Shown here: one piece after another, positions 28,742 through 49,064 of the stretch
How the letters are laid out: every line of letters begins with the position of its first letter
Numbering within the stretch: position 1 is the stretch's first letter
Virus record (IMG/VR): IMGVR_UViG_3300042891_000711
Coordinates: 124,001 to 188,000 of that record
Source of the DNA: a virus
Reading direction: 5' to 3' (one strand)
Length of the DNA: 64,000 nucleotides
The notes under the pieces: generated by a model
Database searches by the model: none
What the model saw: only the letters and a program-made list of their open reading frames with translations
Told to the model about the DNA's origin: nothing
Made by a program: the position numbers and the translations under genes

Positions 28742-29829
28742 TTCCATTCTTCGGTGTAGATCGTCAATATAAAACAATACGTGAAGAGATACTCGATGTA
28801 ACAGATCTTGTATACTCTAGCGGACAGGTCTTAGACGGACAATATACCAATACGTTTGAACAGACTATAGCCAAACTAACAGAACGCAAGTATGGTGTGG
28901 CTGTTAATAGTTGTACACAGGCATTAGTGTTTGCCCTACGATCAATTGACTTTTATTCCTTATTTCACAAAAACAAAGTATTAATTCCAAGTCAAAGTTT
29001 TGCCGCTACAGTTAATGTTGTATACGAAGCCGGCTTTGAACCTGTGTTCTGTGATGTTGATCCTATCTCAGGATTAATTGATCTTAACAGTATTCCAGTT
29101 AAACCAGATGAAGTTGCAGCTGTTATGTATGTTAACTTGTTTGGCAATATCATCGACTACGATAAATTACAAACGTATGTTACGTTCTTTAATAATCATC
29201 GCATACCTGTAATCGAAGATGCCGCACAATCATTTGGTGCTTACTATCGAGGAGTACCCAGTGGCAAGTTGGGAGACCTTAGTTGTTTAAGTTTTGACCC
29301 AACTAAGAATTTCCCTAACTACGGATCGGGAGGAATGATACTCACAGACGACTACGAATTAGCTGAGCTGTGTATTAATATGCGCGACAACGGCAAGGTG
29401 TCAGAGCATTATACAGTTGGCACTAATAGTAAGATGAGTGAAGTCGATTGTGCGCAGATGCTGGTCAAGTTAAGACACTTTGATGCATGGCAACAGCGTC
29501 GTAAAAACATTGCAGAATATTACACAGAAGAACTAGATGGCCCTGTGCAGATGATTCCTGTAGACCATAATGTTGAACATGCATGGCATAAGTTTGTTAT
29601 ACACTATCCAGAACGTTCGCGTTTATTCTCAGATTTACACTATATGGGTATAGAAACTAAAATACATTATACTGCACCATTGCACATGATGGGTGTTGTC
29701 GGTGGACATGAAGTACTAGTAGGTGCCGAACAGTTTAGTAAAACTTGTTTGAGTTTGCCCATCTATCCAGAGATGACTGATGCAGAAGTTGAAGCAGTTG
29801 TTGATGCTATTAAAGAGTGTACTTGGTAG
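28738..29829 (+). CDS. DegT/DnrJ/EryC1/StrS aminotransferase
   Basis: 363 residues from ATG 28738 (ATGA overlap with the epimerase), full family length. N-terminal PFFGVDRQYKTIREEI, the SCTQALVFALRS helix dipole at the PLP phosphate, PSQSFAATVN, VIEDAAQSFGAYY with the PLP-ring Asp, and SFDPTKNFPNYGSGGMI containing the Schiff-base lysine. It transfers an amino group, typically from glutamate, to a keto-sugar made by an SDR, so it forms a logical pair with the preceding gene. Its 3' end overlaps the opposite-strand 872-residue gene by 20 nt. Confidence 0.9.
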   Translation: MIPFFGVDRQYKTIREEILDVTDLVYSSGQVLDGQYTNTFEQTIAKLTERKYGVAVNSCTQALVFALRSIDFYSLFHKNKVLIPSQSFAATVNVVYEAGFEPVFCDVDPISGLIDLNSIPVKPDEVAAVMYVNLFGNIIDYDKLQTYVTFFNNHRIPVIEDAAQSFGAYYRGVPSGKLGDLSCLSFDPTKNFPNYGSGGMILTDDYELAELCINMRDNGKVSEHYTVGTNSKMSEVDCAQMLVKLRHFDAWQQRRKNIAEYYTEELDGPVQMIPVDHNVEHAWHKFVIHYPERSRLFSDLHYMGIETKIHYTAPLHMMGVVGGHEVLVGAEQFSKTCLSLPIYPEMTDAEVEAVVDAIKECTW

Positions 29830-32428
29830 CGTAATACTGTTTCAACCACGCCCATTCAAACGTCAGCATTAGTTTAGCGTAATCACCAGCAACATCATTA
29901 TAATATTCTAGTGCGTCCTGTGCACCTTGTAAACTCGATTCTGCACAGTTACCTTCAGCTGTTGTTAACCATCTGTCCAATCGATAACGACTTTCGATAC
30001 TGCCAGTGCGTTCGACATCATCTTTAAGTTTAATACACTCTCTAAACGCAGTACGCCATGTTAGCTCAGGTGTAGTATTATAATGCGCTGTAGCACTTAG
30101 TAGAGGCACTACAGCATGTGCTTTGCTCAATGTGAAGTCTAGTCCCGTGTCTGTTGTTTCGATTACTAGGCGTTTGTTATACGCAATTACACCCATGTGT
30201 CCGTACTCTAATCCGTTAACCGGATTCTTACTATGGAATATGTAGTGCTTAGGACCTTGTAAGTAGTCTGGTTGCCAATTCCAATCAAACGCTGTGTTAA
30301 CTTCTAATTTAGCAAACACAGCAAAGAACCAAGGTGTTGTACTAAGTTCAGCGGCGGCTTTGTAAGCGTTAGCTCGACCATCAACATTTTGCACACGTTT
30401 AACTGATCTACGTGTCAGGTCTACGGTACTAATTAAATGTTCATACCAACGTTCTGCATCTGGCTCACCATTGCTGATGTAGATAATATCCAATGCATGT
30501 TCATCGAACATAGGCATTTTAGTAATATAAGGATAATCGTATGCTTGTGTATTGATGGCAGATTTGGCGTCTCTAGGGGCTAAAATATAGCTGTTTCCGG
30601 CTGAAAAACCAACGATTTGACGGTCTTTTGCGTACCAAATGCTGGGATTATACTGTACACCACGATCATAGTTAAAAAAGTATGTAAACGGATGTTTAAA
30701 TTCATGCGACTTAATTGCCGCAATTAAATTGTCACCTTCATACTGTTGTCCGGGGATAGGCAAGCGGGGCACTCGTTGTTCTTCGCAGTAGTTAATAACA
30801 TTAAACCAATCCAACATCTCGAGCTCAACCATTTGCAGTTTAAAACTTTCTACGTGTATGTAGAATGTATCACCACGTGCTTGATTGGCACTAGGAAACA
30901 CGTGTATCATTTCTTTCTGCCAGGGTTCTGGTTGCCAGCTAAAGTCAAAGCGGGCATAATCACATAGACTGCTGATTATCCATACGTGTTCTGTTGAGGC
31001 AGTTGCCATAATACGTTTAAAGGTATCAAGGTAGTTGTCAACATATCGAGTCGATTTAATATCGGGGTGTTTCTTTTGTAGTTGCTCAAGTTGATCATTA
31101 TCATTGCCATGATCCACAAAGTAAATGTCATGCAGGTCGTCTGGTATTATAATACTTTGATCTTGTACAAAGTTTAGGTTTGGAAATTCTTCTAAGCTGT
31201 TAGCCCATGCGGATGTACGTTCAAATTCCCAACGATTAATTAAATAGGTATCACTCCACTTTTGATGTTGTGAACCAAATACATGTGTCATGTAACTTTG
31301 CCACGGTTCAGCATGCCATGCAAAGTTAAAGTCATCGTAGACGTTTTCACTACTGATAACCCAAAACTTACTGGTCTTTGCTCGTGCTACACAACGACGA
31401 ATTGTGTCAATCATTGAATTAACATAGCGTACTCGTTGTACCTGTGGATACTGTTCAACTAATTTTTCATAACGTGCGGCCGAACTAGCATTGCTCCGGT
31501 CAATAAAGAATATATCTAATACTTGTATCACCGGGTTATCGTGTTGTCCTATAGTAGGAATATCTCCAGCAAACTTAACTTCGGTTGCACCCGGCGCAGT
31601 ATAGGTCAGTCCGATACTAGATTGAAACTCTGAGCCAAAATGATAGATGTAGGGAGGATCCTGCGGATGCGGCACCCATCCAAAGTCTACAGTATCTGCA
31701 TTGACTTCTTCTGGTATAGTCCATAAGGTACGATCAGGTAAGGTACGTGCTACCACTACATCAATATATTTTTCTTGTGTAGCACCCGGTACGTGATATT
31801 CAGGACCGCCCACTGCATTCCACACTGTAGGGAATTTATATATATAGGGTTCTTCTGCTGGGTGTGGTACCCAACTAAAGTCAAATGATTCTTTGTCTAT
31901 ATTAGCAGGTACCTGCCAACGACTCATGTCACTGAGTGTGCGAGCAAAGAAATCATCTACAAACTTAACAGCAGTTGCACCAGGTACACGATATTCTGGA
32001 CCACCAATACGCTCCCATCCCCACTTAACAGGGAACTGATATACGTATGGTGGATCCAATGGATCAGGTGCCCATCTTTGATCAATACTGGCGGGATCTA
32101 TGTTATCAGGTACATGCCAATAGTCTAAATTAGGCAGACGATGTGTGTATGTTTCTTTATGGTAGTTGTGTACTTTATCTTGTACAGTATACTTGTTAGC
32201 AAAGTAGGTGCCACCATCCTGTTGCCATTGGTTTGCCCACGTATGTATTTGATGCTGTTCCCAAGGCACTGCACGGAAATTAAAATCAAATCCTGTGTAG
32301 TCATTCTGTCCATCTATGTACCAAAAGAATTTAGTGCGACTTAGTTCAGCCGCTTTGGCTAGTGTATCGGCCGGCAGTTCAAAAGGAAATAAGTTGGGCT
32401 TAGGGCCCTTATAGAATACATCAAACAT
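29810..32428 (-). CDS. 872-residue repeat protein with degenerate GT-A-like modules
   Basis: Two kinds of internal repeat are visible. Module A (about 22-82, 304-403, 434-530 and 648-755) follows the pattern D-I-x-F-I-D, an RYVN/RYVD segment, a helix, then a KFWVISS/WIISS strand and DDFNFAWHAEPWQ-type end. It recalls the donor half of GT-A glycosyltransferases, but the DxD-type acids are mostly lost (FWYIDGQND near residue 35 is closest). Module B occurs three times (about 97-160, 161-231, 232-290) with W-x-V-P, DF-x-WVPHP, PPYIY, GGPEY-x-VPGAT. The C-terminal 110 residues are helical. No known protein matches. It may be a scaffold or multi-site glycan-binding protein of the decoration cassette (inference). 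Confidence 0.6.
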   Translation of the reverse strand: MFDVFYKGPKPNLFPFELPADTLAKAAELSRTKFFWYIDGQNDYTGFDFNFRAVPWEQHQIHTWANQWQQDGGTYFANKYTVQDKVHNYHKETYTHRLPNLDYWHVPDNIDPASIDQRWAPDPLDPPYVYQFPVKWGWERIGGPEYRVPGATAVKFVDDFFARTLSDMSRWQVPANIDKESFDFSWVPHPAEEPYIYKFPTVWNAVGGPEYHVPGATQEKYIDVVVARTLPDRTLWTIPEEVNADTVDFGWVPHPQDPPYIYHFGSEFQSSIGLTYTAPGATEVKFAGDIPTIGQHDNPVIQVLDIFFIDRSNASSAARYEKLVEQYPQVQRVRYVNSMIDTIRRCVARAKTSKFWVISSENVYDDFNFAWHAEPWQSYMTHVFGSQHQKWSDTYLINRWEFERTSAWANSLEEFPNLNFVQDQSIIIPDDLHDIYFVDHGNDNDQLEQLQKKHPDIKSTRYVDNYLDTFKRIMATASTEHVWIISSLCDYARFDFSWQPEPWQKEMIHVFPSANQARGDTFYIHVESFKLQMVELEMLDWFNVINYCEEQRVPRLPIPGQQYEGDNLIAAIKSHEFKHPFTYFFNYDRGVQYNPSIWYAKDRQIVGFSAGNSYILAPRDAKSAINTQAYDYPYITKMPMFDEHALDIIYISNGEPDAERWYEHLISTVDLTRRSVKRVQNVDGRANAYKAAAELSTTPWFFAVFAKLEVNTAFDWNWQPDYLQGPKHYIFHSKNPVNGLEYGHMGVIAYNKRLVIETTDTGLDFTLSKAHAVVPLLSATAHYNTTPELTWRTAFRECIKLKDDVERTGSIESRYRLDRWLTTAEGNCAESSLQGAQDALEYYNDVAGDYAKLMLTFEWAWLKQYYATKYTL

Positions 32429-32843
32429 CTAACTGTTCTACTTCCACTCCCGAAGCCTTAAGGAAATTGACTCCACTATCATCGCGATAACTAGTAGCGT
32501 AGTAAACTCGTTTGATACCACTTTGGTATATGAGCTTGGCACAATCCAAACAAGGACTATGAGTAACAAATAAGTCAGCATCAAGTCCAGACTCAGTGCT
32601 CCTGGCTAGTTTTGCAAGTGCGTTAGTTTCAGCATGTAGGACTTCCGGTTTAGTTTTAATCGTGCCATCGTCAAGTTCATACTCGCAGTTATTATCCCAA
32701 CCAGTAGGCATACCATTGTAGCCAATTGAAATAATTCTGTCGTCTTTAACTACTAGTGCACCAACTTTAAGTCTACGTGCTGTGCTTAGATCACTGTAGA
32801 GATGTGCAGCTCGCATGTGTGCTAGTTTATATTTTGTTTTCAT
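32421..32843 (-). CDS. Deoxycytidylate (dCMP) deaminase
   Basis: 140 residues from ATG at 32843 (ATGA overlap with the upstream kinase); a start 12 nt further upstream is possible. It converts dCMP to dUMP, the thymidylate synthase substrate. Zinc and catalytic residues: VLHAETNAL (His70, Glu72) and SPCLDCAKL (Cys98, Cys101). The VVKDDRIISIGYNGMPTGWDN block is typical of T4-type dCMP deaminases. It overlaps the 872-residue gene by 8 nt. Confidence 0.93.
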   Translation of the reverse strand: MKTKYKLAHMRAAHLYSDLSTARRLKVGALVVKDDRIISIGYNGMPTGWDNNCEYELDDGTIKTKPEVLHAETNALAKLARSTESGLDADLFVTHSPCLDCAKLIYQSGIKRVYYATSYRDDSGVNFLKASGVEVEQLDV

Positions 32844-33274
32844 TCTAGTATCCAAACTAAATCAGCCAAGGTCTTACTCCATTGATCAATATCATCAAAT
32901 GTAGTAATACGGAAATCATATTCTTCAATGGACAAAGGTTCAAACAATTGATTAGTATCTTCGTAACGACCAGACCGAATAGTATCCATCCAAACCACTA
33001 GATCAGCATCAAATATTTTTCTCAGTTCCCGTGTGGGACAGACAAAATCGCATATGGCAATTATATCTCGTTGCTCAATTGCAGTTGCGATATGTCGCAT
33101 GCGATGTGCTTGTCGTAGTCTACCTTCACTGGTAAAATCCCAATCGTTGGTGGCCTGTCGGACTTCGTCGGCATTAACCCACTCTACAGCAAAGTTATTG
33201 GCTATTTCTTCTGTTAACCGTTCAGCTAACGTAGTTTTACCTGAGCCGGGTAGGCCACAAATTAAGATTTTCAT
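32840..33274 (-). CDS. Adenylylsulfate (APS) kinase-like P-loop protein
   Basis: 144 residues from ATG 33274; upstream in-frame codons lie within or before the promoter. The P-loop CGLPGSGKTT (6-15) starts the protein. VNADEVRQATNDWDFTSEGRLRQAHRM matches the APS-binding block of CysC enzymes, DFVCPTRELR replaces the usual fourth block, and VVWMDTIRSGRYEDTNQLFEP is the lid region. It is short (CysC is about 200), so a related small-molecule kinase is possible. If it makes PAPS, the sulfotransferase-like proteins at 26691 and 33353 would be natural users. Confidence 0.7.
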   Translation of the reverse strand: MKILICGLPGSGKTTLAERLTEEIANNFAVEWVNADEVRQATNDWDFTSEGRLRQAHRMRHIATAIEQRDIIAICDFVCPTRELRKIFDADLVVWMDTIRSGRYEDTNQLFEPLSIEEYDFRITTFDDIDQWSKTLADLVWILE

Positions 33275-33281
33275 ATTAGTT

Positions 33282-33352: not shown

Positions 33353-34594
33353 ATGAATGTACTAATTCTTACACCCGACAGAGTTGGGTCAACCCTGCTA
33401 CAAAGATTGCTTACCGTGTATATGTTAAGAAAAGGGTTTGATAAACCAGTAATTAACCTACATGAGTTAACCAACGGACTAGTACAATATTACAATACTA
33501 CCATAAATCAAACTGTTCTGGGTAAACCCGAAGGTCAAGACTGGGGATACCATCAATCCTTGTCCGAAGTTATTGAATTGCTATCTTCAACAGACCATTA
33601 TAAAACTAGTAGACTAGCACACTATCATATTGTTAATAGACAGGATTCTATTGCCGAACAATTAAAGTTTTATGATTATCTCAATAAGAATTTTTATATA
33701 ATCAGCTGTCGTAGAGAAAATCTATTGGAGCATGCACTAAGCTGGTCAATTAATGCGCATAGTAAAAAATTAAATGTATACAGTCCACACGAAAAGATTA
33801 ATTCATTTTATGATATCTATCGTAACGGTATAGAAGTTCAACGAGATACTATGTATGCTCATTTAAAAAAATATAAAGAATATATCGATTGGTCTGACAG
33901 ATATTTTAACATACAGTCACATTTTTATTATGAAAATGATGTGCCTAAGATTGAAGATTATATTTTAAATTTAGATTTTATGCAAGGGCACGCCAACAAC
34001 TCCTGGCAGGATATGTTTGGGCAAAGCTTCGTCGACTATAATACCTGTCACAAACTTATTCCAGATTTATTGTTGTCTAATAATGTTACTGCCGATACAA
34101 CAAAAATCAGTCGTCCACAGTGGGCGTGGAATTCTGAGTCGCTTAATGAATTAAATTGGAATACTGTTAAAGGGAAAGATTGGCCAGAGTACGATGATGT
34201 AACTGTTGAATCATTTAATAAACTGCCAGCACCTATACAATCAGAACTTACTGAATTTGGCTATAACCCAAACAAGTATTCAGTATCAGTTACTGCTGAT
34301 GTTTACAATTTTTTAAACCAGCATGTTGCACAGTATAAAGACACAGATGACCAACTGAACAAACTAGTACAAGATGGATTCTTAGTAACAGGCATTCCAA
34401 TTAAACTACAGTCGTTCAGTGAAAAGAAATCTATTGTTAGAAACTTTAACGAATGTGTCGATTGGTATAATGAGTGGACTGTGGATAATTCCTATGGAAA
34501 GAAATATTCTGCGGAAGACATAAGTCAATTATGCATCATTGAAGATACTCGATTGACATTGCCTTTAGTGACTGTTAGTAAATTACTTTCATAA
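33353..34594 (+). CDS. Sulfotransferase-like protein
   Basis: 413 residues; no clear ribosome site. The N-terminus ILTPDRVGSTLLQRLLTVYML has the G-S-T loop typical of phage and bacterial sulfotransferases, and FYIISCRRENLLEHALSW matches the family's second 3'-phosphate-binding strand (R-x6-S type). The rest is helical and poorly conserved. It likely transfers sulfate from PAPS to a glycan or protein. It stands alone on the plus strand between two minus-strand operons, and its 3' end overlaps the SGNH gene by 20 nt. Confidence 0.65.
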   Translation: MNVLILTPDRVGSTLLQRLLTVYMLRKGFDKPVINLHELTNGLVQYYNTTINQTVLGKPEGQDWGYHQSLSEVIELLSSTDHYKTSRLAHYHIVNRQDSIAEQLKFYDYLNKNFYIISCRRENLLEHALSWSINAHSKKLNVYSPHEKINSFYDIYRNGIEVQRDTMYAHLKKYKEYIDWSDRYFNIQSHFYYENDVPKIEDYILNLDFMQGHANNSWQDMFGQSFVDYNTCHKLIPDLLLSNNVTADTTKISRPQWAWNSESLNELNWNTVKGKDWPEYDDVTVESFNKLPAPIQSELTEFGYNPNKYSVSVTADVYNFLNQHVAQYKDTDDQLNKLVQDGFLVTGIPIKLQSFSEKKSIVRNFNECVDWYNEWTVDNSYGKKYSAEDISQLCIIEDTRLTLPLVTVSKLLS

Positions 34595-35423
34595 GGTCTG
34601 ACACAAAATTAGTTGCAGTAGCTTTGTCATAATGGTGACCATCTCTTGCTAGATCAACCTGTGTCAACTGAATAATATTATTACGAATTGCCGAATCGGT
34701 TAGATGTATGTACTCGTAGTAATCATTATAAAAATCATACGTACTTAACTCTTCTTTAATGTTCACAGGAAGGGAATCAAATTCTAGTTTTGTGCGAGGT
34801 GCAGTGGGCCATGTATCTCCACTAAGTTTTTTCCATTTAATATTGAAAAATTCTTCATTTTCTATACGGTACGCACCAGGAATCATTGAATGAATTAATT
34901 TAGTAGTGGTTACAGCGGTATTAACGGCATCTAAATTTTTATCAAAATTATGTAAATAAACTTTATTATCTAAATCAGTATATGCCAGGCGGCGATTCTC
35001 GTCAATCTTAGTGTCATCTGTGTCTTCAGCTCGTTCAACATAAGTCCACTGGATAATTATACATCGAGGAGTTATAGTTTCTAACAAGCGTAGTACTTTT
35101 CTTGCGATCCAATCATTGCTGGCGCCGTCCATACTAACATTAATACACCGAATGTTAGTTTTATTTTGTAATATGTTTACCCAAGTATGCTCTAATGGGC
35201 TACCCAATCCTACTGTAAAACTATCACCAAAGCACCATATTGCATCGGTTATGTTATCGGGCCATTCACTGTCTCTGAATCCTCGAGAATTGTAATTGTA
35301 TTCAATGGCATAAGGATAAGAATTAAAATGATGTTTATCCGTGCAATATTTCTCAGAATCTATACCAGATTCATTCCATACTTTATGTTGTCTGGTAGTT
35401 AATATAAAATCTGGTAGTATCAA
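34575..35423 (-). CDS. SGNH/GDSL-type hydrolase
   Basis: 282 residues. Catalytic blocks: AIWCFGDSFTVGLG (Ser68), NVSMDGASNDWI for the oxyanion Gly and Asn, and RDGHHYDKATA with Asp-x2-His near residue 268. A NYNSRGFRD segment before the nucleophile is common in phage and surface-glycan SGNH proteins. Likely a deacetylase or esterase/acyltransferase on a carbohydrate. It overlaps the carbamoyltransferase gene by 4 nt; two more SGNH genes follow upstream in the operon. Confidence 0.82.
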   Translation of the reverse strand: MILPDFILTTRQHKVWNESGIDSEKYCTDKHHFNSYPYAIEYNYNSRGFRDSEWPDNITDAIWCFGDSFTVGLGSPLEHTWVNILQNKTNIRCINVSMDGASNDWIARKVLRLLETITPRCIIIQWTYVERAEDTDDTKIDENRRLAYTDLDNKVYLHNFDKNLDAVNTAVTTTKLIHSMIPGAYRIENEEFFNIKWKKLSGDTWPTAPRTKLEFDSLPVNIKEELSTYDFYNDYYEYIHLTDSAIRNNIIQLTQVDLARDGHHYDKATATNFVSDLMKVIY

Positions 35424-36910
35424 GATAAAACTCGAATTCCGTATAACTGCTCAAAGCGGTCAGCATCTGCACGATCGTTAACCATCGGTTCACCACGTAC
35501 ATTTAAACTTGTATTAAGTAACATAGGACAACCTGTCCAAGTATACCACAAGCACAATAGTTCACGTATACCACTGCCATCTCTGGGCACAGTCTGTACA
35601 CGACTTGTACCATCTACATGTATTATAGCAGGAAATTCATCGGGTCGCAGGCACTTTGCAGTTGTTTGCATGTATCTGCTTGTGGCAAATCCGTTGGGCA
35701 TTTCAAAATACTCATCAACAAACTCCTCTAGTATTATAGGAGCGAATGGTCTAAACTTCTGTCTACGTTTAATTTGATTAACTGCATCTTTAATGTCAGG
35801 GCCACGTGGGTCGGCTAATAAACTACGATTGCCCAATGCTCTAGGGCCAAACTCTGCACGGCCGCTAGCAACGCCAACGATCTTATTGGTCATTAGCTCA
35901 GAGACAACATCGGTGACAGGATAACTGCCACTAATATTATGGCCAAGAAAAGCATTATTCCAATTAAGTTTACCCCCGTGTGCCAATGCCGCCGCTCCAA
36001 GGCTGCTACCAGCATCACCAGGATTAGGCATAATCCATATTTCATCAAAGTATTCTCCTAGATCTCTATTAGCACTGCAATTAAGAGCAACTCCGCCAGC
36101 ATATACTAAATTACTATTAGGTGCTAGCTTCTTTGCCTTGTACATAATATTATGTATCAATTGTTCTGTTAATGTCTGTGCCGCATTAGCAATTTCAAAA
36201 TCATTCCAACGAGCTCGCATGTCATTATCGGGTAGACCAATATGTAGATTGTGTTTTAATGTTAGATTAAACTCATGGTCAACTAACCAAGTTGACAGTT
36301 GATCACTTAGACGTGTGGTATTTTGTTTTGCCCAACCTGCCATACCCATCAAGATGTATTCTTCATCTAGTGGTTTAAGTCCAACTTCTTTAGTAAATGC
36401 ACTGTACATCAAGCCGATGCTGTGTGGATATAGTTGTCGCCATACTCGGGTGTATTCAGCACGGCCATTGACATACTTAGCTGACCATATGCTTATGGTG
36501 TCCCACTCGCCGATGGCATCGATTACCACAACTGTTGCGCTGTCAAACGGGCTAGTTTGAAAGCCGGCCGCTGCATGACTTAAATGATGATTGTATGTAT
36601 TAATCGGAGTAGAACTCAACCACGGAGCGACTTTGTGTATCATGTTGCGCACACTCCAGCCTTTAGTTAGTTCGCTGTACTGGCCAGCATAGAGTTGACG
36701 TGTCTTTTTAACCCAGGGTCTTTCGTAGTAGGCAATTAGATCAGGTTCGCCATGATTAAATATGCAATCTTTAAACAGTTCACTGTTTAAATTTGGATCG
36801 TGTTTAATCTTGCTGTAACGTTCAGCATGGCCCGCAAAGACAATGTCATCGCCTTTGATTAATGTAATTGCTGCGTCATGAAACCCAGCCGAGATGCCTA
36901 ATATGTTCAT
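35420..36910 (-). CDS. NodU/CmcH-type carbamoyltransferase
   Basis: 496 residues. It would transfer carbamoyl from carbamoyl phosphate, through carbamoyl-AMP, to a sugar or alcohol hydroxyl. N-terminal Kae1-like domain: ILGISAGFHDAAITLIKG, YNHHLSHAAAGF with the metal-binding histidines, VVVIDAIGEW. C-terminal TobZ-like part: VASGRAEFGPRALGNRSLLADPR, RRQKFRPFAPIIL, LLNTSLNVRGEP. Slightly shorter than the usual 550-600. It lies between SGNH hydrolase genes, with overlaps of 4 and 35 nt, pointing to modification of the same glycan. Confidence 0.92.
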   Translation of the reverse strand: MNILGISAGFHDAAITLIKGDDIVFAGHAERYSKIKHDPNLNSELFKDCIFNHGEPDLIAYYERPWVKKTRQLYAGQYSELTKGWSVRNMIHKVAPWLSSTPINTYNHHLSHAAAGFQTSPFDSATVVVIDAIGEWDTISIWSAKYVNGRAEYTRVWRQLYPHSIGLMYSAFTKEVGLKPLDEEYILMGMAGWAKQNTTRLSDQLSTWLVDHEFNLTLKHNLHIGLPDNDMRARWNDFEIANAAQTLTEQLIHNIMYKAKKLAPNSNLVYAGGVALNCSANRDLGEYFDEIWIMPNPGDAGSSLGAAALAHGGKLNWNNAFLGHNISGSYPVTDVVSELMTNKIVGVASGRAEFGPRALGNRSLLADPRGPDIKDAVNQIKRRQKFRPFAPIILEEFVDEYFEMPNGFATSRYMQTTAKCLRPDEFPAIIHVDGTSRVQTVPRDGSGIRELLCLWYTWTGCPMLLNTSLNVRGEPMVNDRADADRFEQLYGIRVLS

Positions 36911-38321: not shown

Positions 38322-38322
38322 C

Positions 38323-40672: not shown

Positions 40673-43214
40673 AGCCCATTGCTACAGCAATCTCTCTATG
40701 AGTAGTTAACATACTCTGCTCACGGTATGCGTCTGTCTGTTGCATCTTATGTAGGAATTCTGTGCCATCACTACCACCACCATTTTCGATAAATTGAATT
40801 ATCTTATCAATTTCAACTCGATGCTTAACATTAAATGGATAAGCAGATAATCTATCAATTACTAACTTTTGTGCATCCGTTGTCATTCGATTGATACACA
40901 TAACACTCGGGTCATGCAACATATTAAAATGCACCATATCAAATTGTTGAGTATTAACCCAGTCACATAGCTCGGGCAGATAATAAACATTTTGTATGTT
41001 AACGGTCATGCAAACCTGTGTCTGAATTAAATTAGTTTTCATGGCATTAAATTTTATAACATTAGTTTTTACTTCTTCCCACACAGCACCATAGCGTTCG
41101 TATTCAAAACGTGCTTCGGTATTATCAATACTAACTGCAATTTCAACATTTCTAAATTTACTCCATAAGGCAACTTCTTCGTCGCTTGGGTATACTGTAC
41201 CGTTAGTATTATAGTGTATATCAATACGTTTACTATATCCATGCTCAACTGCATAGCGTAATAGTTTAAAATGCTCTTCGATTAGGAATGGTTCGCCGCC
41301 TGTGAATTCAAAGTACTTAATGTTTGGTAATAGTTCTTTTAAATTTTCCCAAAATACTTCGCTTTCCCTCGGCCAGGTTCCTTCTTGTAGGAACATATAT
41401 GCACCGTGTTGTTTACGGTCATATCCCTGCACGTCTTTATATTTTCTAGCTTCGTAATCAATTTCTTCTTTAGCCCATTTACTGCTACTCCATGATCCGC
41501 ATATACGACATTTAAGATTACAGATGTTGCCTAGTTTAAGATCAATGAACCAAAGTTGATCCGGTGTATCATTACGCCAATCAACTATTGGATAGAATTC
41601 TTTAAGTCTAATTCTGCTGTTGATACGTTTACTAACTATGCCCGCATCTTCTTCACTCCAGCAACGATTGCATGTACTAGGCTTTTCACCTCGACGGAAT
41701 TGTTGGCGCAGGTCCTGCATGTATTCACTATTGTAAATTTCAGCCAAGGAGCTTTCTCTAAGTTTATACGGAGTACCATCGGGTTTAGTAATTTCATCTT
41801 TAGCCAGACAACACGGACGGGCTGTGCCGACTGGACTTGCTTCAATACTGACCCACGGCAACATACAGATATTATCATGTGTCTTATTGATTCCCAAATG
41901 GTCTCTCAACTCTTGATATTCTGGAAACACTTCTTCGAATGTTTCTTTTCTAAACTCATCGGTTTGATCATTTATCTTAAAAAATTCTTTTAATAAATGG
42001 CTCTTATCGTCTTGATACATAAATGTGATAATAGCTCGATAACCCGATATAGCTCGTTGTAAATGATCCTGTGGGTCAAGCCAAGCAATATGTTCTTCAA
42101 CACGTTGCTTAATTCTATCTTTAAACTGAATTGGTAATACATCGATTCGATCACGTTCTGGACTTTGTAGAATGTTAACATTCCAATCCATTGCTTTAAT
42201 TAAGCCAAGTTCAACCCATTCTTTATGAAATTCAGTTAAATGCCAAGCATTAAGTATACTAACTGTACTGCTGACATAAAAGTCAACTTTAGGACAAATT
42301 TCAATCATTTTGCGTCGATTTTCTACTGTTTCTGCCCAGTCTGTGCCCTTGCGGATGTATTCTCCGCGAAGATATGAATCATCTAAACTAGCACCCACAC
42401 TTACTACATCAAACAGTTTCCAATATTCAAATACCATCTTATCTTTAAGACGTATGTGACTGAAGTTTGTGTTGTAGATTAACCTAACATGGAACATTTC
42501 ACGCTTAACCAGTTCTTCTAATATGCGATAATGTTCTTCCATGATTAATGGCTCGCCGCCGGCAAAGTAAATCTGTTCTAGATAGGGAATGTGTTCCTGC
42601 ATCTGTTCCCACATGTCATCTTTATTTTTACCTGCAAACATAATCTGCGGATGATTTAATTTACCGAATAGTTTAGTTTCTTCTGCAAACCAACTACTGC
42701 TGAATAAACTACCACAAGTACGGCAACTAAAGTTACATAGATTACTAAAACGTACATCATAGTAGCGTAGTTTAAAGTCATCTAAACTACCGTCGGCATT
42801 AGTTTTATCTGCTAAGGCAATATGATGTCCAAAGTTCTTATTTTGACTGTTGCGCATCGAAAAGAATCCGTTGTCTTCTTGTTCGTAACAACGTGTACAT
42901 TCTTTACTGGGTTTATCCTCTAACATATTTAGACGCATCTGTTTGTATGGGGTTCCATTCCATACTTCTGCCATGGTATTCTCTTTGAAGTTACCAATCG
43001 GCAAATGCATTTCACCTAAACAACATGGATATGCACGACCATCGGGAATTCCATGCATGTGCGTCCATGGTATCATACAGAAGTGCTTGCTTTCTATTAG
43101 TTTATATGTTTGATCTTCTGTTAACTCATCTTCATGTATATACACAGGTTTACGTGTATTGTAATTGTGATTTTTATGATGTACAGTTAATTTTTTGCTT
43201 GGCTCATCGCTCAT
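40659..43214 (-). CDS. Tandem double radical SAM protein (two complete modules)
   Basis: 851 residues made of two full copies of the same enzyme layout. Module 1: FCMIPWTHMH (Cys46), PCCLGE (64/65), ECTRC (106/109), then FSNLCNFSCRTCG (Cys160, 164, 167) and FAGGEPLIMEEHY. Module 2: NICMLPWVSIE (Cys450), PCCLAK (468/469), TCNRC (515/518), then LGNICNLKCRICG (Cys565, 569, 572) and FTGGEPFLIEEHF. All cluster cysteines are kept in both halves, so both may be active. Fusion of two such units is unusual and could allow successive or paired modification of one substrate. Overlaps of 14 and 4 nt link it to its neighbours. Confidence 0.88.
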   Translation of the reverse strand: MSDEPSKKLTVHHKNHNYNTRKPVYIHEDELTEDQTYKLIESKHFCMIPWTHMHGIPDGRAYPCCLGEMHLPIGNFKENTMAEVWNGTPYKQMRLNMLEDKPSKECTRCYEQEDNGFFSMRNSQNKNFGHHIALADKTNADGSLDDFKLRYYDVRFSNLCNFSCRTCGSLFSSSWFAEETKLFGKLNHPQIMFAGKNKDDMWEQMQEHIPYLEQIYFAGGEPLIMEEHYRILEELVKREMFHVRLIYNTNFSHIRLKDKMVFEYWKLFDVVSVGASLDDSYLRGEYIRKGTDWAETVENRRKMIEICPKVDFYVSSTVSILNAWHLTEFHKEWVELGLIKAMDWNVNILQSPERDRIDVLPIQFKDRIKQRVEEHIAWLDPQDHLQRAISGYRAIITFMYQDDKSHLLKEFFKINDQTDEFRKETFEEVFPEYQELRDHLGINKTHDNICMLPWVSIEASPVGTARPCCLAKDEITKPDGTPYKLRESSLAEIYNSEYMQDLRQQFRRGEKPSTCNRCWSEEDAGIVSKRINSRIRLKEFYPIVDWRNDTPDQLWFIDLKLGNICNLKCRICGSWSSSKWAKEEIDYEARKYKDVQGYDRKQHGAYMFLQEGTWPRESEVFWENLKELLPNIKYFEFTGGEPFLIEEHFKLLRYAVEHGYSKRIDIHYNTNGTVYPSDEEVALWSKFRNVEIAVSIDNTEARFEYERYGAVWEEVKTNVIKFNAMKTNLIQTQVCMTVNIQNVYYLPELCDWVNTQQFDMVHFNMLHDPSVMCINRMTTDAQKLVIDRLSAYPFNVKHRVEIDKIIQFIENGGGSDGTEFLHKMQQTDAYREQSMLTTHREIAVAMGYVEA

Positions 43215-44563
43215 AAGGTGTCGTACCAGTTAGTTAATTGTGTAAATGTATATTTAAAGTCTTTGCCTCGACGTTGGTCGTATTGCTGATAAAATTGTTT
43301 AAAATCGTTTTGTAATTTAGGCAAATCAAATGCTTCAGCATGCGGAATATCTACCATGGTCAAATATTCAATTAGTCGTTTAATGTGCTCAAATTCGTGC
43401 TCATGAAATACTGTATTCTTATTATTGTTAGCTAAAAAAGTTTCAAGTTCTAAACTATATTTTTTACGTAGTTCTAAGGGTAATATTAAAGGGCTTTGGA
43501 AACTTGGAAAGCGCAGAATATTTAGAGTAAACGACAATGAATCACGTCCGTATTTCTCTTTGAGTTTCATTATATTGTACAAAAATTCACTGAGGCTTGA
43601 TAAACACAGGGCATTGATTGTGCCCATGATATGCACGCCGCGCACCTGTTTGGATTCTAATAGAAATACTAAATTTTTGACCCATTGTTTCCATTCTAAT
43701 CCATCACGTATATACTCTGCTTGTGCGCCCATAGCTTCGTTACTGGTGTAGATATCAAGTTCGATACCCTGTGTGCTATCCAGCAAGCGTTCGAGTACAT
43801 CACGTTTAAAGCCAAGATTACTATTGATAGCTAGGCGTGTAGTACTGGCACCTTTATGTTCTTTAAACCAATCTATTAGACGCCATGTATAACCCGACAT
43901 CAAGGGTTCACCACCTGTGATGCGCAGTTCTTTTAACGTCTTGTGTAGGTCTGTTTCCCACCACTTAAAGAACGCTTCCACATAAGGATTAACTTCATTG
44001 AGTGTGTAAAGTTGACTACTATCATGAACATGAGTAAAGTGATTCCTACCGTCTGATACCAAGTTTGTGTAAGCACCATTTGTTTTAATATCTCTGACCC
44101 AGGCGCTACTAAAAGCAGGATTGCAGTAACTACAAGCAAATTGACAAGTACGGTCAAAAGAAATTTCCAATGTCTGCAGATCCACGTCTTGGTCCGCGGG
44201 TAAATTATATGCATAATCTAAATCCTCATCTTTATAAATTACAGTTTTGTACACACGGTCACTGACTGCCGCTGTGCCCATGTCTTCAATCTTCCAGCAG
44301 TATTCACAGCCCGCGGGTCGTTCACCTTGTTGCATCATACGACGTTCTTCTTTCTTACGTATGCTGTTGTGCAGGGCTTTGGGATTAGCAGCAATATCCT
44401 CAAGTGACACTTTGTGCGGTAGTGGATGATGACAGCTAGTAGTCATACCCGAACCCAACCATATAGTAGCATTGTACCACTTGGCCGCACAGAATGATTC
44501 TGACTTAATGTCAATTACTCTACGCTTGTATTCTAAGTCTGTTTCGTTATTAATTTTCGGCAT
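43211..44563 (-). CDS. Radical SAM protein, Cys-rich N-terminus (group B)
   Basis: 450 residues. N-terminal FCAAKWYNATIWL (Cys25), SCHHPLPH (Cys44), GCEYCW (Cys86, Cys89), then the cluster motif FDRTCQFACSYCNP (Cys140, 144, 147), LRITGGEPLMSGYTW and a barrel strand DIYTSNEAMGAQAEYIRDG. The C-terminal region (KFLANNNK, YQQYDQRRGKDF) is shared with the next protein upstream, so the two are paralogues. Likely peptide or protein modification; substrate unknown. ATGA-type overlap with the double radical SAM gene. Confidence 0.85.
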   Translation of the reverse strand: MPKINNETDLEYKRRVIDIKSESFCAAKWYNATIWLGSGMTTSCHHPLPHKVSLEDIAANPKALHNSIRKKEERRMMQQGERPAGCEYCWKIEDMGTAAVSDRVYKTVIYKDEDLDYAYNLPADQDVDLQTLEISFDRTCQFACSYCNPAFSSAWVRDIKTNGAYTNLVSDGRNHFTHVHDSSQLYTLNEVNPYVEAFFKWWETDLHKTLKELRITGGEPLMSGYTWRLIDWFKEHKGASTTRLAINSNLGFKRDVLERLLDSTQGIELDIYTSNEAMGAQAEYIRDGLEWKQWVKNLVFLLESKQVRGVHIMGTINALCLSSLSEFLYNIMKLKEKYGRDSLSFTLNILRFPSFQSPLILPLELRKKYSLELETFLANNNKNTVFHEHEFEHIKRLIEYLTMVDIPHAEAFDLPKLQNDFKQFYQQYDQRRGKDFKYTFTQLTNWYDTL

Positions 44564-45932
44564 GATATTTGCATTCGTTCCAAAATTCTCGCATCTGTGG
44601 GAATATGTCTGTAAAATGTCCTATGTCAGTTTCGTATGCGCCGCGACGTTTATCGTATTCGCTAAAGAATCGATAGAAGTCCGCACGTTGTAGTGTAACA
44701 TACTTTGCATCTAACTTGCTACCATCTCGCATCCAAAGTAAGTTGCGTTCCATACGCTGTATTTCATAATCTTTAAAGCCAACAAAACTATCGTTGGGCA
44801 TTAGGTTAGCCCGCATAAATGCTATAACATCTTCTAATACTGTCTGGTAACTTGCTGGAAGTATCTGTAAACTTTGCCAAGTTGGACTACGTAGTAAAGG
44901 TGTATCAAACCAAACACGTTGATAAGTTTCGCTATACAATTCACGTTGATCTAATACAGTCTGCAATAATTGTTTTAGTCCTAAAATATTTAAATTACTC
45001 ATCGTGATGATATAGGTTAGGCTATTGCGATAAGGTATATGTGTAAGATAACGATGTACATATGAATTTACTCTATGTTGATTTAAACCACGACGAATAT
45101 ACTCCGACTGTCTGGTGTCACCCGAATCTAAACTAACATACTGCATAAAGTGTTCGATGCGTTCACCTTCGCATAGCTGTTTTACTTTGTCTAGATACTT
45201 GTCAAACAGTTCAGGCTCGACACTAAAGTTACTGGTTACATCAACGTGCAAGTCACTCTTAGGCAAGGCAAGTATGTAGTCAAACACACGATGCGTATTC
45301 TTATCCATAAGTGGTTCGCCACCTGTCATACGGAAGTGTTTTAGTTTAGGATATAGTTCAGGCCACCAAGACCAAAATGCATCTACATAAGGATTTTCTG
45401 CACGTACTGGAATTGGCTTACGTCGACCTTCAAAATGTTCAGGCGCATTGTGCGGAGTACTAGTTGGATATGCTCCCCATCGGTCAATATCTGTACCCCA
45501 CTTAGTACTGTACTGCGGACTGCAATAGCTACATGCCAAATTACAGCCATGACTGAAGTTTACTTCTACATAACTTGGCGTAACGTCCTGATCCCAAGGT
45601 GCATTAACTATAGTTTCGTAGTGTTCAGCAGCCCATGGTTCGCCACTGCGATAATGCCTATCGCTTAGTTGCTGGTTATCTTCTGCACTCCAACAGTAGC
45701 TGCATTCTGCCGGACGTGTTTGCTCTAGCATAAGTTTACGTTGCTGTTTCTTATAGTCAGTATTGTGTAAGGCACTGGGATTGAATAGTAATGGTGCGCT
45801 ATCAATTTCATGTAAAGGCGGATGATAACAACTGTTAGTTAAGCCCGTTGGTAAATGTAGACTTACCTGTTGCCACTTAGCCAAGCAGAGTGCCGGACCT
45901 AACTTGTCCTTCATTTCTTCTGCGGCAGACAT
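44550..45932 (-). CDS. Radical SAM protein, Cys-rich N-terminus (group B paralogue)
   Basis: 460 residues from ATG 45932, 7 nt after the upstream stop; an ATG 45 nt earlier lies inside that gene and is less likely. N-terminal LCLAKWQQVSLHL (Cys16), SCYHPPLHE (Cys35), ECSYCW (Cys77, Cys80), then FSHGCNLACSYCSP (Cys130, 134, 137), FRMTGGEPLMDKNTHRVF and SLDSGDTRQSEYIRRG. It shares the C-terminal pattern FFSEYDKRRG with its paralogue at 43211. It overlaps that gene by 14 nt. Confidence 0.85.
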   Translation of the reverse strand: MSAAEEMKDKLGPALCLAKWQQVSLHLPTGLTNSCYHPPLHEIDSAPLLFNPSALHNTDYKKQQRKLMLEQTRPAECSYCWSAEDNQQLSDRHYRSGEPWAAEHYETIVNAPWDQDVTPSYVEVNFSHGCNLACSYCSPQYSTKWGTDIDRWGAYPTSTPHNAPEHFEGRRKPIPVRAENPYVDAFWSWWPELYPKLKHFRMTGGEPLMDKNTHRVFDYILALPKSDLHVDVTSNFSVEPELFDKYLDKVKQLCEGERIEHFMQYVSLDSGDTRQSEYIRRGLNQHRVNSYVHRYLTHIPYRNSLTYIITMSNLNILGLKQLLQTVLDQRELYSETYQRVWFDTPLLRSPTWQSLQILPASYQTVLEDVIAFMRANLMPNDSFVGFKDYEIQRMERNLLWMRDGSKLDAKYVTLQRADFYRFFSEYDKRRGAYETDIGHFTDIFPQMREFWNECKYHAEN

Positions 45933-45939
45933 GAAATTA

Positions 45940-46836
45940 CTACTCACGTGACATTGGGCCTCGGTTTTTAAACACACTTTTGTAGTGATGTTTAAAGAAT
46001 CTACTTTGATCAGCTGTGAAATGTGGAGCAGGTAATCCTAGTTTTACGCTTAATGTATGTGACATTTCACTACATTCTTCTACTAGATTATATACTTTAT
46101 GTTGATGCCATATATTGTTTAGTGCATCGAAGTCCTGCACTTCTCTATAATCCCAATCTGTAATCATAGTCATGTATGTGCCTAGTTTAGCACCGTACAT
46201 GGCCCAGTCACCGTTCTCTACATCTATGCCCACATTGTGCCATATGCTTAGATGATCATAGTTACGTTCGTGTACACGTTTTTCAAATTCTTGTAGTGTA
46301 GGTTTGGCACCACGATCCAAACACATCTTAACACCTTCTCTAAAGCCAGCTCGCCATGCTTGATAAGGACTTTGATTTGGATATGTTGTGCTGTAGCAAT
46401 CATTCATTGCCCAATATCGTGGATCAAAACAAAACTCAACTGCGGTATCATCTGCACCATCGCTGGCTTCGTGTGTACGCATATTGTTTACAAAATCCTT
46501 GGTCCAGCAACTCATACCACCATTGCCGTACATAAGTCCGTTGATAATGTTACGTGCTTTCCAACGGAATACTACATCTCGATTAGTATCATCCAGTGTA
46601 AGCTGTAGGTTAAAGAACTCTGGATCGGGTAAGTTATCACCATCTATTAATACAAAGCGTTCAGTATCACTTGCGGCGGCCGCGGCTTTATGTGCAGCAT
46701 CACTGCCCTTGACACCGTCTACTCGTTTAGCCCACGGCACCATGTTTTGAATTTTAATCCAAAACTCTTCTTTTTTAGGTTCATCGTAACTTAGGTAGAT
46801 GCAGTCTAAATCTGCAATATCAACGATTTGTGTCAT
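45940..46836 (-). CDS. GT-A-like glycosyltransferase
   Basis: 298 residues. The N-terminal half has CIYLSYDEPKKEEFW, AAHKAAAAASDTERFVLIDGDNLPDPEFF, where D-G-D-N fits the metal-binding DxD of GT-A enzymes, and WKARNIINGLMYGNGGMSCWTKDF, a typical acceptor loop. The C-terminal half is helical. It probably transfers a sugar from a nucleotide donor. The same N-terminal design, in decayed form, repeats in the 872-residue protein at 29810. It overlaps the next gene by 17 nt. Confidence 0.72.
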   Translation of the reverse strand: MTQIVDIADLDCIYLSYDEPKKEEFWIKIQNMVPWAKRVDGVKGSDAAHKAAAAASDTERFVLIDGDNLPDPEFFNLQLTLDDTNRDVVFRWKARNIINGLMYGNGGMSCWTKDFVNNMRTHEASDGADDTAVEFCFDPRYWAMNDCYSTTYPNQSPYQAWRAGFREGVKMCLDRGAKPTLQEFEKRVHERNYDHLSIWHNVGIDVENGDWAMYGAKLGTYMTMITDWDYREVQDFDALNNIWHQHKVYNLVEECSEMSHTLSVKLGLPAPHFTADQSRFFKHHYKSVFKNRGPMSRE

Positions 46837-47176
46837 AGTATTCTATATCCTGGTAGGTGTCAGTTGATTCTATTATTAGTCCTGCATGTTTCTTTACAGT
46901 AGCGTAGCCTGTGATACTACTAGTTAATTGTACACGATAACCCGGGTTGTTGTCAATCTTTTTTAGACGGCAGTCTACAATTGTATAGCGGAAATAATTC
47001 TCATATTCATCTTGACTAACAACAACATACTGCGTATCTGCTGGGTGGTTCATCATTGTACACATTGTAATGATTCCAAGTTCATTGTAGTGTAATCTAT
47101 ATTCTTTAACTTCTTCTACAGTAGGTTTGAGCATTGCCAATGCTTTTTCAAATTCACTTAAAGAGTTCATGTTCAT
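46820..47176 (-). CDS. Hypothetical protein between glycosyltransferase genes
   Basis: 118 residues (start 47176, or 47170 by the second Met). A helical N-terminus (SEFEKALAMLKPTVEEVKEYRLHYN), then a beta-rich domain: GIITMCTMMNHPADTQYVVVSQDEYENYFRYTIVDC, YRVQL, and an acidic YQDIEYYD end. Familiar as a small phage hypothetical (memory); no function. Overlaps both neighbours (23 and 17 nt). Confidence 0.6.
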   Translation of the reverse strand: MNMNSLSEFEKALAMLKPTVEEVKEYRLHYNELGIITMCTMMNHPADTQYVVVSQDEYENYFRYTIVDCRLKKIDNNPGYRVQLTSSITGYATVKKHAGLIIESTDTYQDIEYYDTNR

Positions 47177-48011
47177 ACTCCTTGACTAATTGATCCGTTA
47201 CCCAAGACTTTTCATGATAGTGAACGGGGTGATATTGATTGGTGTTTGCTATGCGTATCATTGGCAGTTCTGTTTCACACATGACTAACTCGGGCCAGGG
47301 TGTACTAGTCCATGCATTAATTGCTGGCTTCATATGCACAAAATTAATAAAGTCTAGGCTAGGTAGTGTACAATCTTCTACACCAAGTAACTTTGCAGCT
47401 AGAGCATAGACAACATCAGTAGTGGGATTATCATCACGGCAGTTAAGTAATACATTGTCACGTATGTAGGCCCAATTTTTAAATATTTGTTCTGCTAAGG
47501 CAAAGAATTGCGTAGCTTCACGACTGTATCTAAAATACATTAGCCCATTGTAGGTATCGGGCAATTCATTATCGTCAAATAACTTTCTGTATTCTCGTGA
47601 TACGCTTAACTCCTGCTGATAGTTTCTACAGCCGGTGCTTAGTACAACATTTTTTAATCTAAAAGCAGTCCACCAATGTGCAATACTTCTAGTGAATACA
47701 ATGTCACTTTCAAGTTTAATTGTTTCTTTGAATGGAGTGAGATAAAATGCCTGCCATTCATTTGATAACTTCCATGTTTCGTTTTCAGCTAGGTCATTCT
47801 CAATAGTAACAACATAATCAAACACCCGTCGATGTTGTTCTGTTATCTGTTCAAGTGTATGTTTATCAACTGCTACTGCGTATAAACTATCAGGCATGGT
47901 CAGTTTAATACTCATTGCTTGCACGTAAGCAAGCTGTAAGTAATCAACCTCTGTGGTATTCTGCGCAATGGTCATAAAACCCTGCTGTGCTTGATGTGGT
48001 GTTATGCGCAT
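47154..48011 (-). CDS. GT8-like glycosyltransferase (copy 1)
   Basis: 285 residues. It starts with YLQLAYVQAMSIKLTMPDSLYAVAVDKHT, the nucleotide-sugar half of GT8-like enzymes, has WQAFYLTPFKETIKLESDIVF where E-S-D-I fills the DxD position, and LPDTYNGLMYFRYS as acceptor loop. An SPSLDFINFVHMKP-like segment follows. The first acid of DxD is Glu, so metal binding may differ. It is a paralogue of the gene at 48002, which it overlaps by 10 nt. Confidence 0.7.
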   Translation of the reverse strand: MRITPHQAQQGFMTIAQNTTEVDYLQLAYVQAMSIKLTMPDSLYAVAVDKHTLEQITEQHRRVFDYVVTIENDLAENETWKLSNEWQAFYLTPFKETIKLESDIVFTRSIAHWWTAFRLKNVVLSTGCRNYQQELSVSREYRKLFDDNELPDTYNGLMYFRYSREATQFFALAEQIFKNWAYIRDNVLLNCRDDNPTTDVVYALAAKLLGVEDCTLPSLDFINFVHMKPAINAWTSTPWPELVMCETELPMIRIANTNQYHPVHYHEKSWVTDQLVKEYEHELFK

Positions 48012-48778
48012 ACTGTATCTACCAACTGATTAAAATTTTCACTAAGCAAATAATCTTTATCCATCACGTGTATGTTTTGCAGGGCAATGACATGTGCAGA
48101 ATTTTCTTCGCGTATAATCATCTTTTCGCCCGTTATTTCAATGTTTTTAATTAGTTTATCCAGGGTTAACATAGTCCAAGGTATACTTTGTGTGGTGTTA
48201 GTAGTGTACCCATTAATGATGTTGTTAGCAATAGCAAACGCATAATCATTGCGGAAATTACGTTCTCTTAAGTGATATAGTTTTTGATAGTAAGCATAGT
48301 TACGTTCAATACGACCAACTAAATCAAATAACATTTGTGTTTTATCTGTACGCTTAAATGTTATAGCAGTTGCCCATACATAATCTAAACTTAACTGACC
48401 CATGTTGCCCGACATTGACTGTTCAGGGCTTTGATTATTGTGCATTAACTTATAATCAACTGTTGTATCAAGTATAGTTAATAAACTTGAGTCTAACTGT
48501 AGATAGTCACTGTCAAGTAAGATAGTTTCGTCATAAGGGCTAAGTTCGTATGCACGATATCTACCACCATTCTTCCATTCTGTACCACCAGCATAGCCAG
48601 TGCGATAGTTAGCTAAACTAGGTACGCCCAGATCTGTGATAATGGTAGTAGGTAAGTTTAATGTATGTTTTATTAGTCGTGCGGCTTGCTCAGCGATTCT
48701 AACATAATCAACTGTGGCAGTGTTAACAGCAAATAGTACAACACCTTTAGACTTTGCGGGCACGTCGAATTTCTTCAT
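48002..48778 (-). CDS. GT8-like glycosyltransferase (copy 2)
   Basis: 258 residues. VVLFAVNTATVDYVRIAEQAARLIKHTLNLPTTIITD, GRYRAYELSPYDETILLDSDYLQ with an intact D-S-D, LSLDYVWATAITFKRT and ALQNIHVMDKDYL. The layout parallels copy 1, so a duplication is likely. It would add a sugar to a protein or glycan. Gene overlaps: 10 nt with copy 1 and 32 nt with the upstream small gene. Confidence 0.72.
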   Translation of the reverse strand: MKKFDVPAKSKGVVLFAVNTATVDYVRIAEQAARLIKHTLNLPTTIITDLGVPSLANYRTGYAGGTEWKNGGRYRAYELSPYDETILLDSDYLQLDSSLLTILDTTVDYKLMHNNQSPEQSMSGNMGQLSLDYVWATAITFKRTDKTQMLFDLVGRIERNYAYYQKLYHLRERNFRNDYAFAIANNIINGYTTNTTQSIPWTMLTLDKLIKNIEITGEKMIIREENSAHVIALQNIHVMDKDYLLSENFNQLVDTVCA

Positions 48779-49064
48779 ATTGAATATGCCATGCGTTCAT
48801 TACTTGTTGATAGTGTTGCTGACACAATTCTAAAAATGCTAGTCGTTGTATTTCTATAGGATTTTCGTAGGTATCTTCAAGATATAGTGTATCAGCAGTC
48901 CAAGTTGATAGGAATGCTATAAGTTCCGGTGTTACTTTAAAGAGTCCATTGTTATACGGAACATGTAAGTCCGTTTGTATTTTTTCTTTAAGTATGCGTT
49001 TGTTGGTTTGATAATCCGTTGCTTGTTTAATTTGAGCAACTAGTTGAGTAATTTCTGTTGTCAT
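48747..49064 (-). CDS. Conserved phage hypothetical, first gene of the decoration operon
   Basis: 105 residues from ATG 49064; an in-frame ATG at 49097 would put the terminator hairpin inside the coding region. Helical: MTTEITQLVAQIKQATDYQ, LKEKIQTDLHVPYNNGLFKVTPELIAFLSTW, LYLEDTYENPIEIQRLAFLELCQQHYQQVMNAWH. A protein very like this is recurrent in T4-like cyanophages next to structural genes (memory), possibly a virion-associated or assembly factor. It lies directly downstream of the 49112 promoter. Confidence 0.7.
   Translation of the reverse strand: MTTEITQLVAQIKQATDYQTNKRILKEKIQTDLHVPYNNGLFKVTPELIAFLSTWTADTLYLEDTYENPIEIQRLAFLELCQQHYQQVMNAWHIQYEEIRRARKV

Follow-up and report, generated by a model that had tools for sequence, protein, structure and literature searches.

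In pelagimyophages, host-recognition clusters combine fibres, glycosyltransferases and radical S-adenosylmethionine (radical SAM) cassettes and are read as modifying the O-chain (PMC7029224), and 12 radical SAM genes have been described in one marine T4-like genome (PMC5332604). Glycosylation of virions has been reported in mycobacteriophages (PMC12619734, PMC12363180), and a phage-type carbamoyltransferase acts on 5-hydroxymethylcytosine (5hmC) and co-occurs with a thymidylate synthase of the deoxycytidine monophosphate (dCMP) type and a dCMP deaminase (PMC8670742). Here we analyse a gene cluster in a 64,000 nt long window (bases 124001-188000 of the 218,902-bp IMG/VR virus record IMGVR_UViG_3300042891_000711), in which fibre genes, glycosyltransferase candidates recognised by motifs and fold, and radical SAM genes are joined as in the aquatic myophage host-recognition cluster. 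The kind of system is thus already known from the two aquatic precedents; as far as our searches show, the ordered backbone, the promoter separation, the partner protein U361 and a bacterial gene fusion are new. We read the cluster as a cytosolic sugar-tailoring operon whose acceptor would be a precursor of a host envelope glycan rather than a fibre, a reading to which we give a probability of roughly 45%.

Gene order and transcription beside the fibre genes

The central genes of the cluster (Table 1) recur as a backbone in 56 non-redundant loci of relatives, in the order rSAM4-rSAM3-rSAM2-rSAM2-rSAM1-U361-CARB-REP and facing the DegT and epimerase genes, with variable genes interspersed. In non-redundant freshwater loci the full order u116-GT2-GT1-u118-rep298-rSAM4-rSAM3-rSAM2-rSAM1-U361-CARB-REP is kept together with its orientation, and marine phage contigs binned with bacterial metagenome-assembled genomes largely keep the order as well, up to CARB, DegT, REP and the epimerase (L172). 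Recurrence of the order in 56 non-redundant relatives shows that the concentration of genes is not due to chance. The succession fib313-u116-GT2-GT1 is present in 54 of 55 distinct loci centred on GT1, the remaining one being cut by the contig end; u118-rep298 comes next in nearly all of them, and one has a 98-amino-acid (aa) open reading frame (ORF) between fib313 and u116. The same gene set is therefore found beside fibre genes in other phages, a check proposed in the original prediction, which a model had made from the letters of the window.

In the window, the minus-strand genes from u116 to SGNH-like 1 (49064-34575) overlap or nearly touch, so that they plausibly form one transcript, and the overlapping chain just after the fibre genes had been foreseen correctly. 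The gene set as originally listed is likewise real, although its sulfotransferase and APS-kinase labels are weak. It is extended here by a dCMP deaminase-like ORF, U361, and the adjoining epimerase and DegT genes (27755-29829, plus strand).

Promoters were defined as consensus matches, and their timing is predicted. Sites of the sigma70 type, scored at 10 or more of 12 matching positions, are present at the fib313-u116 junction in 31 of 54 distinct relatives, against a mean of 1.7 and a maximum of 7 in 50 shuffles. The motif ATAAATA occurs at this junction in 4 of the 54 (shuffled mean 1.7). Upstream of fibre genes, the T4-late motif was found in 64 of 94 and a sigma70-type site in 5. Furthermore, an inverted repeat overlaps the -10 region at many of the fib313-u116 junctions. 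Given the contrast between the two promoter types and the hairpin, the operon adjoins the fibres but is probably transcribed separately and, by prediction, earlier. Expression shared with the fibres, for which co-transcription had been the check originally proposed, was rejected, since the operon has its own predicted sigma70-type promoter and hairpin.

Some relatives (L285, L288, L302 and others) carry long inverted repeats upstream of u116, centred on or overlapping the -10 hexamer, which may serve as an operator or as a terminator in which the promoter is embedded.

Upstream of genes, the sequence ATAAATAC was seen 8 times where 0.19 were expected; it precedes structural genes, and TTGACA-N17-TATAAT is found mostly ahead of metabolic genes. 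Judged from its promoters, the source phage looks T4-like and large. The window (positions 1-64000) is strongly depleted of the T4 late consensus TATAAATA (1 match against 10.8 expected, standard deviation 3.2), which would fit a role of ATAAATA as a functioning element of late promoters. A role of the ATAAATA-like motif as a ribosome-binding element is unsupported, Shine-Dalgarno-like sequences being present at 66 of 99 starts, and a late-type motif 13 nt ahead of the 413-aa gene lies too close to be trusted.

Enzyme families and their bacterial relatives

Four ORFs (39383-45977, minus strand) comprise five radical SAM modules, all belonging to NF033640 (N_Twi_rSAM, N-terminal twitch) with scores of 274-717 bits, the curated cut-off being 170 bits. 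Every module has CX3CX2C and an N-terminal four-cysteine cluster, and scores and cysteine pattern thus agree with the four proteins and five modules with Cys-rich N-terminus that had been predicted. Throughout the genome, eight domains exceed the cut-off, and three of these members lie outside the cluster.

U361 adjoins rSAM1 in nearly all of the 56 loci; as these were retrieved by the U361 search itself, the informative part is that rSAM1 is also present. The structural model of U361 is confident (pLDDT 88, pTM 0.85), finds no match among PDB folds (best E 0.29), and in BFVD matches uncharacterised phage proteins only. Sequence and profile searches of U361, REP, GT1, rep298 and the 371-aa family (see below) against solved structures gave nothing useful. 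In records of isolated phages, tblastn detected only distant radical SAM relatives, and no relative of U361 or of the 872-aa protein REP. Elsewhere in the genome, a U361 paralogue, a ClpP-like gene and an N_Twi_rSAM gene stand in a row (L164:2935-5749, genome positions 37935-40749).

CARB matches both Pfam domains (Carbam_trans_N/C) far above the cut-off, which makes the carbamoyltransferase call certain. It has the His metal motif and the EFGPRALG motif, the metal and carbamoyl motifs being present in 48-49 of 49 relatives, and its nearest solved proteins are the novobiocin and GdmN carbamoyltransferases and TobZ.

The three glycosyltransferases predicted as GT-A-like have motifs of the DxD type, an invariant DGD in rep298 and DxD-like motifs in GT1 and GT2. 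None of them, nor REP, matches Pfam or a solved sequence, and the GT-A-like assignment of the three is for this reason putative. REP, foreseen as an 872-residue repeat protein, is present and is better described as tandem GT-A-like domains. With its AlphaFold2 model, built from 35 aligned sequences (pLDDT 89), Foldseek retrieved GT-A multi-domain enzymes, the best being K4 chondroitin polymerase (E 3e-6, probability 1.0, low TM-scores). In addition, REP is homologous to its 298-aa neighbour rep298, and its relatives span 600 to 1019 aa. We read it as a series of tandem GT-A-like units, and catalysis by REP is uncertain because most units are without an obvious DxD.

Genes for SGNH, kinase, deaminase, 413-aa and GT-like proteins are gained and lost among relatives. 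The commonest variable family is a 371-aa GT-like protein with a TEKxFKPI motif and no Pfam match (51 of 56 loci), and other variable genes of relatives include PIG-L, GFO/IDH, a cytidylyltransferase and a weak Stf0 match. All three predicted SGNH hydrolases carry the GDSF (block I GDS) motif, while the three together yield one profile match, which is weak (Pfam, E 0.0095). The APS-kinase label proved generic: in the ORF at 32840-33337 only residues 22-107 match APS_kinase, and generic P-loop kinase families match too. The sulfotransferase label found no support, as the 413-aa protein matches neither a sulfotransferase profile nor any other informative family in Pfam, NCBIfam or PHROGs. An amidinotransferase-like protein (by resemblance, with no Pfam match) is encoded on the opposite strand in 26 relatives, including L151:12626-13669, and an ORF resembling it is found elsewhere in this genome (L163:19031-19945).

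Relatives of the radical SAM, CARB and U361 proteins were found in Bdellovibrionota. N_Twi_rSAM loci were numerous in a scan of species genomes, for the most part in Bdellovibrionota. Within one order, the NF033640 cut-off was exceeded by 61 of 125 genomes, and many of these had 13 or more matches. Contigs of Bdellovibrionota and other bacteria (L199, L205, L231 and others) bear arrays with numerous N_Twi_rSAM genes inside 20 kb. Among immediate neighbours of bacterial N_Twi_rSAM genes (n=117), the families GDSL, GT2 and DegT are represented by 6, 5 and 3 cases; for distant genes of the same loci (n=117), the listed families include GT2, with 2 cases, and neither GDSL nor DegT. This enrichment for sugar genes is suggestive only. 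CARB homologues lie up to five genes from a radical SAM gene in nine of ~65 bacterial loci, several of them from related genomes, although most genomes carry one to four. The best bacterial example, L208, encodes a 934-aa protein in which carbamoyltransferase and SPASM/radical SAM are fused, together with DegT, an alcohol dehydrogenase, two N_Twi_rSAM proteins, a U361 homologue and an exporter of the Wzm/Wzt type, to which O-antigen/lipopolysaccharide transporters are the closest solved relatives. In one Bdellovibrionota order, 21 of 129 genomes have a U361 homologue. Of ~15 bacterial loci inspected, ~6 have the U361 homologue no more than ~3 kb away from a radical SAM gene, and in one operon the two genes overlap.

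In another part of the window, within the interval 2913-26420, matches to QueE-like radical SAM, QueD-like and GTP cyclohydrolase proteins suggest a 7-deazaguanine (preQ0-type) DNA modification pathway. Host-like genes read from the sequence at genome positions 15001-55000 (L163, L164) include outer-membrane porin-like proteins, peroxiredoxin, cytochrome c, an adenylate cyclase-like protein, GroES and GroEL.

Table 1. Genes and signals of the cluster, with positions in the window.
Feature	Position	Strand	Remark
fib313, Thr-rich virion-like protein	49141..50082	-	directly upstream in nearly all relatives; candidate acceptor
sigma70-type promoter TTGACA-N17-TATACT (49140-49112), then hairpin (49111-49085)	49085..49140	-	sets operon apart from fibre genes
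u116, small protein, first gene of operon (ATG at 49064)	48747..49064	-	
GT2, glycosyltransferase candidate	48002..48778	-	DSD motif
GT1, glycosyltransferase candidate	47154..48011	-	KLESD
u118, small conserved protein, no function assigned	46820..47176	-	
rep298, GT-A-like protein (putative)	45940..46836	-	invariant DGD; homologous to C-terminal unit of 872-aa protein
rSAM4, N_Twi_rSAM	44550..45977	-	
rSAM3, N_Twi_rSAM	43211..44563	-	
rSAM2, fusion of two N_Twi_rSAM modules	40659..43214	-	two separate genes in most relatives
rSAM1, N_Twi_rSAM	39383..40672	-	
U361, conserved 361-aa protein	38323..39408	-	confident model, unmatched among solved folds
SGNH-like 3	37494..38321	-	GDSF
SGNH-like 2	36876..37424	-	GDSF
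CARB, O-carbamoyltransferase, NodU/novobiocin/TobZ superfamily, 496 aa	35420..36910	-	
SGNH-like 1	34575..35423	-	GDSF
413-aa protein, possible sulfotransferase (unproven), variable cargo	33353..34594	+	
P-loop kinase, APS_kinase/AAA_33 kind, variable cargo	32840..33274	-	own sigma70-like promoter 33310-33282
dCMP deaminase-like protein, variable cargo	32421..32855	-	sequence motifs only
REP, 872-aa tandem GT-A-like protein (putative)	29810..32428	-	length differs among relatives
DegT sugar aminotransferase	28696..29829	+	solved relatives include QdtB, WbpE
NDP-sugar epimerase/dehydratase	27755..28741	+	

Proposed function and its acceptor

Modification of a sugar polymer, in keeping with the polymer decoration put forward in the original prediction, is the best reading of the chemistry, with the sugar substrate inferred from sequence. 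The epimerase and the DegT aminotransferase would, to judge by their families, produce an activated amino sugar, which GT1, GT2, rep298 and perhaps REP may attach, as their DxD motifs and fold suggest. The N-terminal-twitch radical SAM enzymes, with U361, would alter sugar carbons by epimerisation, oxidation or deoxygenation, CARB would add an O-carbamoyl group, and the SGNH proteins may add or remove acyl groups. Host RNA polymerase would probably transcribe the operon early. The target would most likely be the precursor of a host envelope glycan, and its rewriting would keep progeny from re-adsorbing and shut out rivals; the need for fibres to match the chemistry of the receptor would explain why the module stays beside them. 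This reading draws on the affinity of CARB to the novobiocin, GdmN and TobZ enzymes, on the variable genes of relatives, the neighbours of bacterial N_Twi_rSAM genes, the L208 locus, the sigma70-type promoter at the head of the operon and the pelagimyophage precedent (PMC7029224). It also draws on the core families, in which, as in the cluster proteins of the window, no hydrophobic segment above 1.9 (Kyte-Doolittle, 19 aa) was found, with the exception of one DegT ORF. The surface-sugar setting of L208 points to an alteration of the host's coat, or of the phage's own fibres, and not of DNA.

Several observations weigh against this reading. In contrast to gtr cassettes, the cluster encodes neither a flippase nor a membrane transferase, and host lipid-linked precursors would therefore need to serve as acceptor. 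The late-type motif is present at the junction in four relatives and promoter timing is predicted, the neighbour enrichment is small, U361 genes in bacteria often stand alone, and GT1, GT2 and the 371-aa family are supported as glycosyltransferases at the level of motifs only. A virion acceptor would account equally well for the fixed position next to one virion gene, fib313. The same sugar-tailoring enzymes may indeed decorate a virion protein, either the fibres or the Thr-rich fib313 (18.5% Thr), as in mycobacteriophages, where virion glycosylation is established (PMC12619734, PMC12363180). The constancy of fib313-u116-GT2-GT1 in relatives speaks for this, as do core enzymes without membrane segments, which cytosolic protein glycosylation needs. 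However, operon and fibres differ in their promoters, with a sigma70-type site and a hairpin for the former and the T4-late motif for the latter, the homologous bacterial set adjoins a polysaccharide exporter, and T4-like structural modules commonly show conserved synteny; we consider a virion acceptor rather unlikely.

Bacterial relatives of the radical SAM proteins adjoin GT2, SGNH, DegT and carbamoyltransferase genes, and once the Wzm/Wzt exporter, which makes the earlier statement that such enzymes usually act on peptides a poor guide to the substrate. Peptide maturases are the best-known carriers of auxiliary cluster domains of the SPASM type, and Pfam SPASM matches are found among the radical SAM proteins here; a RiPP-like (ribosomally synthesised and post-translationally modified peptide) system that cyclises or epimerises fibre or host peptides, with the sugar enzymes as mere neighbours, could account for them. 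Yet NF033640 surpasses every peptide-maturase model by a wide margin on these ORFs, no precursor peptide was recognised among the ORFs by inspection, the only means applied, the fusion of CARB and radical SAM sits in a polysaccharide locus, and twitch enzymes with carbohydrate substrates exist (BtrN), all of which renders peptide modification improbable. Hypermodification of nucleic acids, with bases carbamoylated or glycosylated by way of radical SAM enzymes, the P-loop kinase and dCMP deaminase, would find two of its parts, kinase and deaminase-like ORF, in the cluster, and recalls the partners of the 5hmC-modifying carbamoyltransferase (PMC8670742). At the positions of TobZ 408/421/423, however, CARB carries residues of the TobZ type: it and 47 of 48 relatives have V, G and R, and the characterised 5hmC enzyme I, C and T. 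The CARBs that adjoin bacterial radical SAM genes resemble the CARB of the window more closely (up to 34%, 267 bits) than does the 5hmC enzyme (24.5%, 87 bits). The only thymidylate synthase in the 219-kb record (PFNIA) has Asn at the switch between deoxyuridine monophosphate (dUMP) and dCMP, as have 26 of 26 matched in relatives' loci, which is the dUMP type; a partner homologue with Asp at 177 is absent from the record and from these 26. With kinase and deaminase present in a minority of relatives, all three tests, of diagnostic residues, thymidylate synthase type and cargo, lowered hypermodification to a very small probability. Equally remote is the view that the region is hypervariable and has loosely gathered auxiliary genes that have nothing to do with each other. 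The turnover of SGNH, kinase, deaminase, 413-aa and GT-like genes would correspond to this view, which is largely refuted by the kept order and orientation of the backbone.

Relation to known systems

We tentatively suggest that N-terminal-twitch radical SAM proteins, U361 and carbamoyltransferase may constitute an undescribed radical-based glycan-tailoring system, common to aquatic T4-like phages and Bdellovibrionota, that would diversify surface sugars in step with phage fibres. If true, a concrete, widespread and ordered gene set would stand behind the glycosyltransferases and radical SAM genes noted beside aquatic phage fibres, an abundant radical SAM family would gain a testable substrate class, and U361, a protein without matched fold, would be its probable partner. 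The early-type promoter makes host- versus virion-directed action directly testable.

All five modules share membership of the NF033640 family by score and cysteine pattern; the family model names no substrate, and the window differs in having five modules side by side with U361. CARB has in common with TobZ, the novobiocin carbamoyltransferase, GdmN and NodU both domains and the metal and carbamoyl motifs, and differs from them in being phage-borne and 496 aa long. The 5hmC carbamoyltransferase (PMC8670742) is of the same superfamily and phage-borne like CARB, but has different diagnostic residues and a dCMP-type thymidylate synthase partner that is lacking here. Mycobacteriophage virion glycosylation likewise involves phage-encoded glycosyltransferases and possibly shares a virion acceptor, although one or two transferases are named in those cases and the present operon has ten or more tailoring enzymes. 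With O-antigen modification of the gtrABC type, the proposed outcome, a receptor change, is alike, whereas a membrane flippase and membrane-bound transferases are replaced by a multi-enzyme cytosolic set without either. The host-recognition cluster of pelagimyophages and cyanomyophages (PMC7029224) combines, as here, a fibre module with glycosyltransferases and radical SAM genes in T4-like aquatic phages. That cluster is described as hypervariable, whereas in the present locus the backbone, which includes U361, CARB, DegT/epimerase and a tandem GT-A-like protein, is fixed, and the sigma70-type promoter is a separate one.

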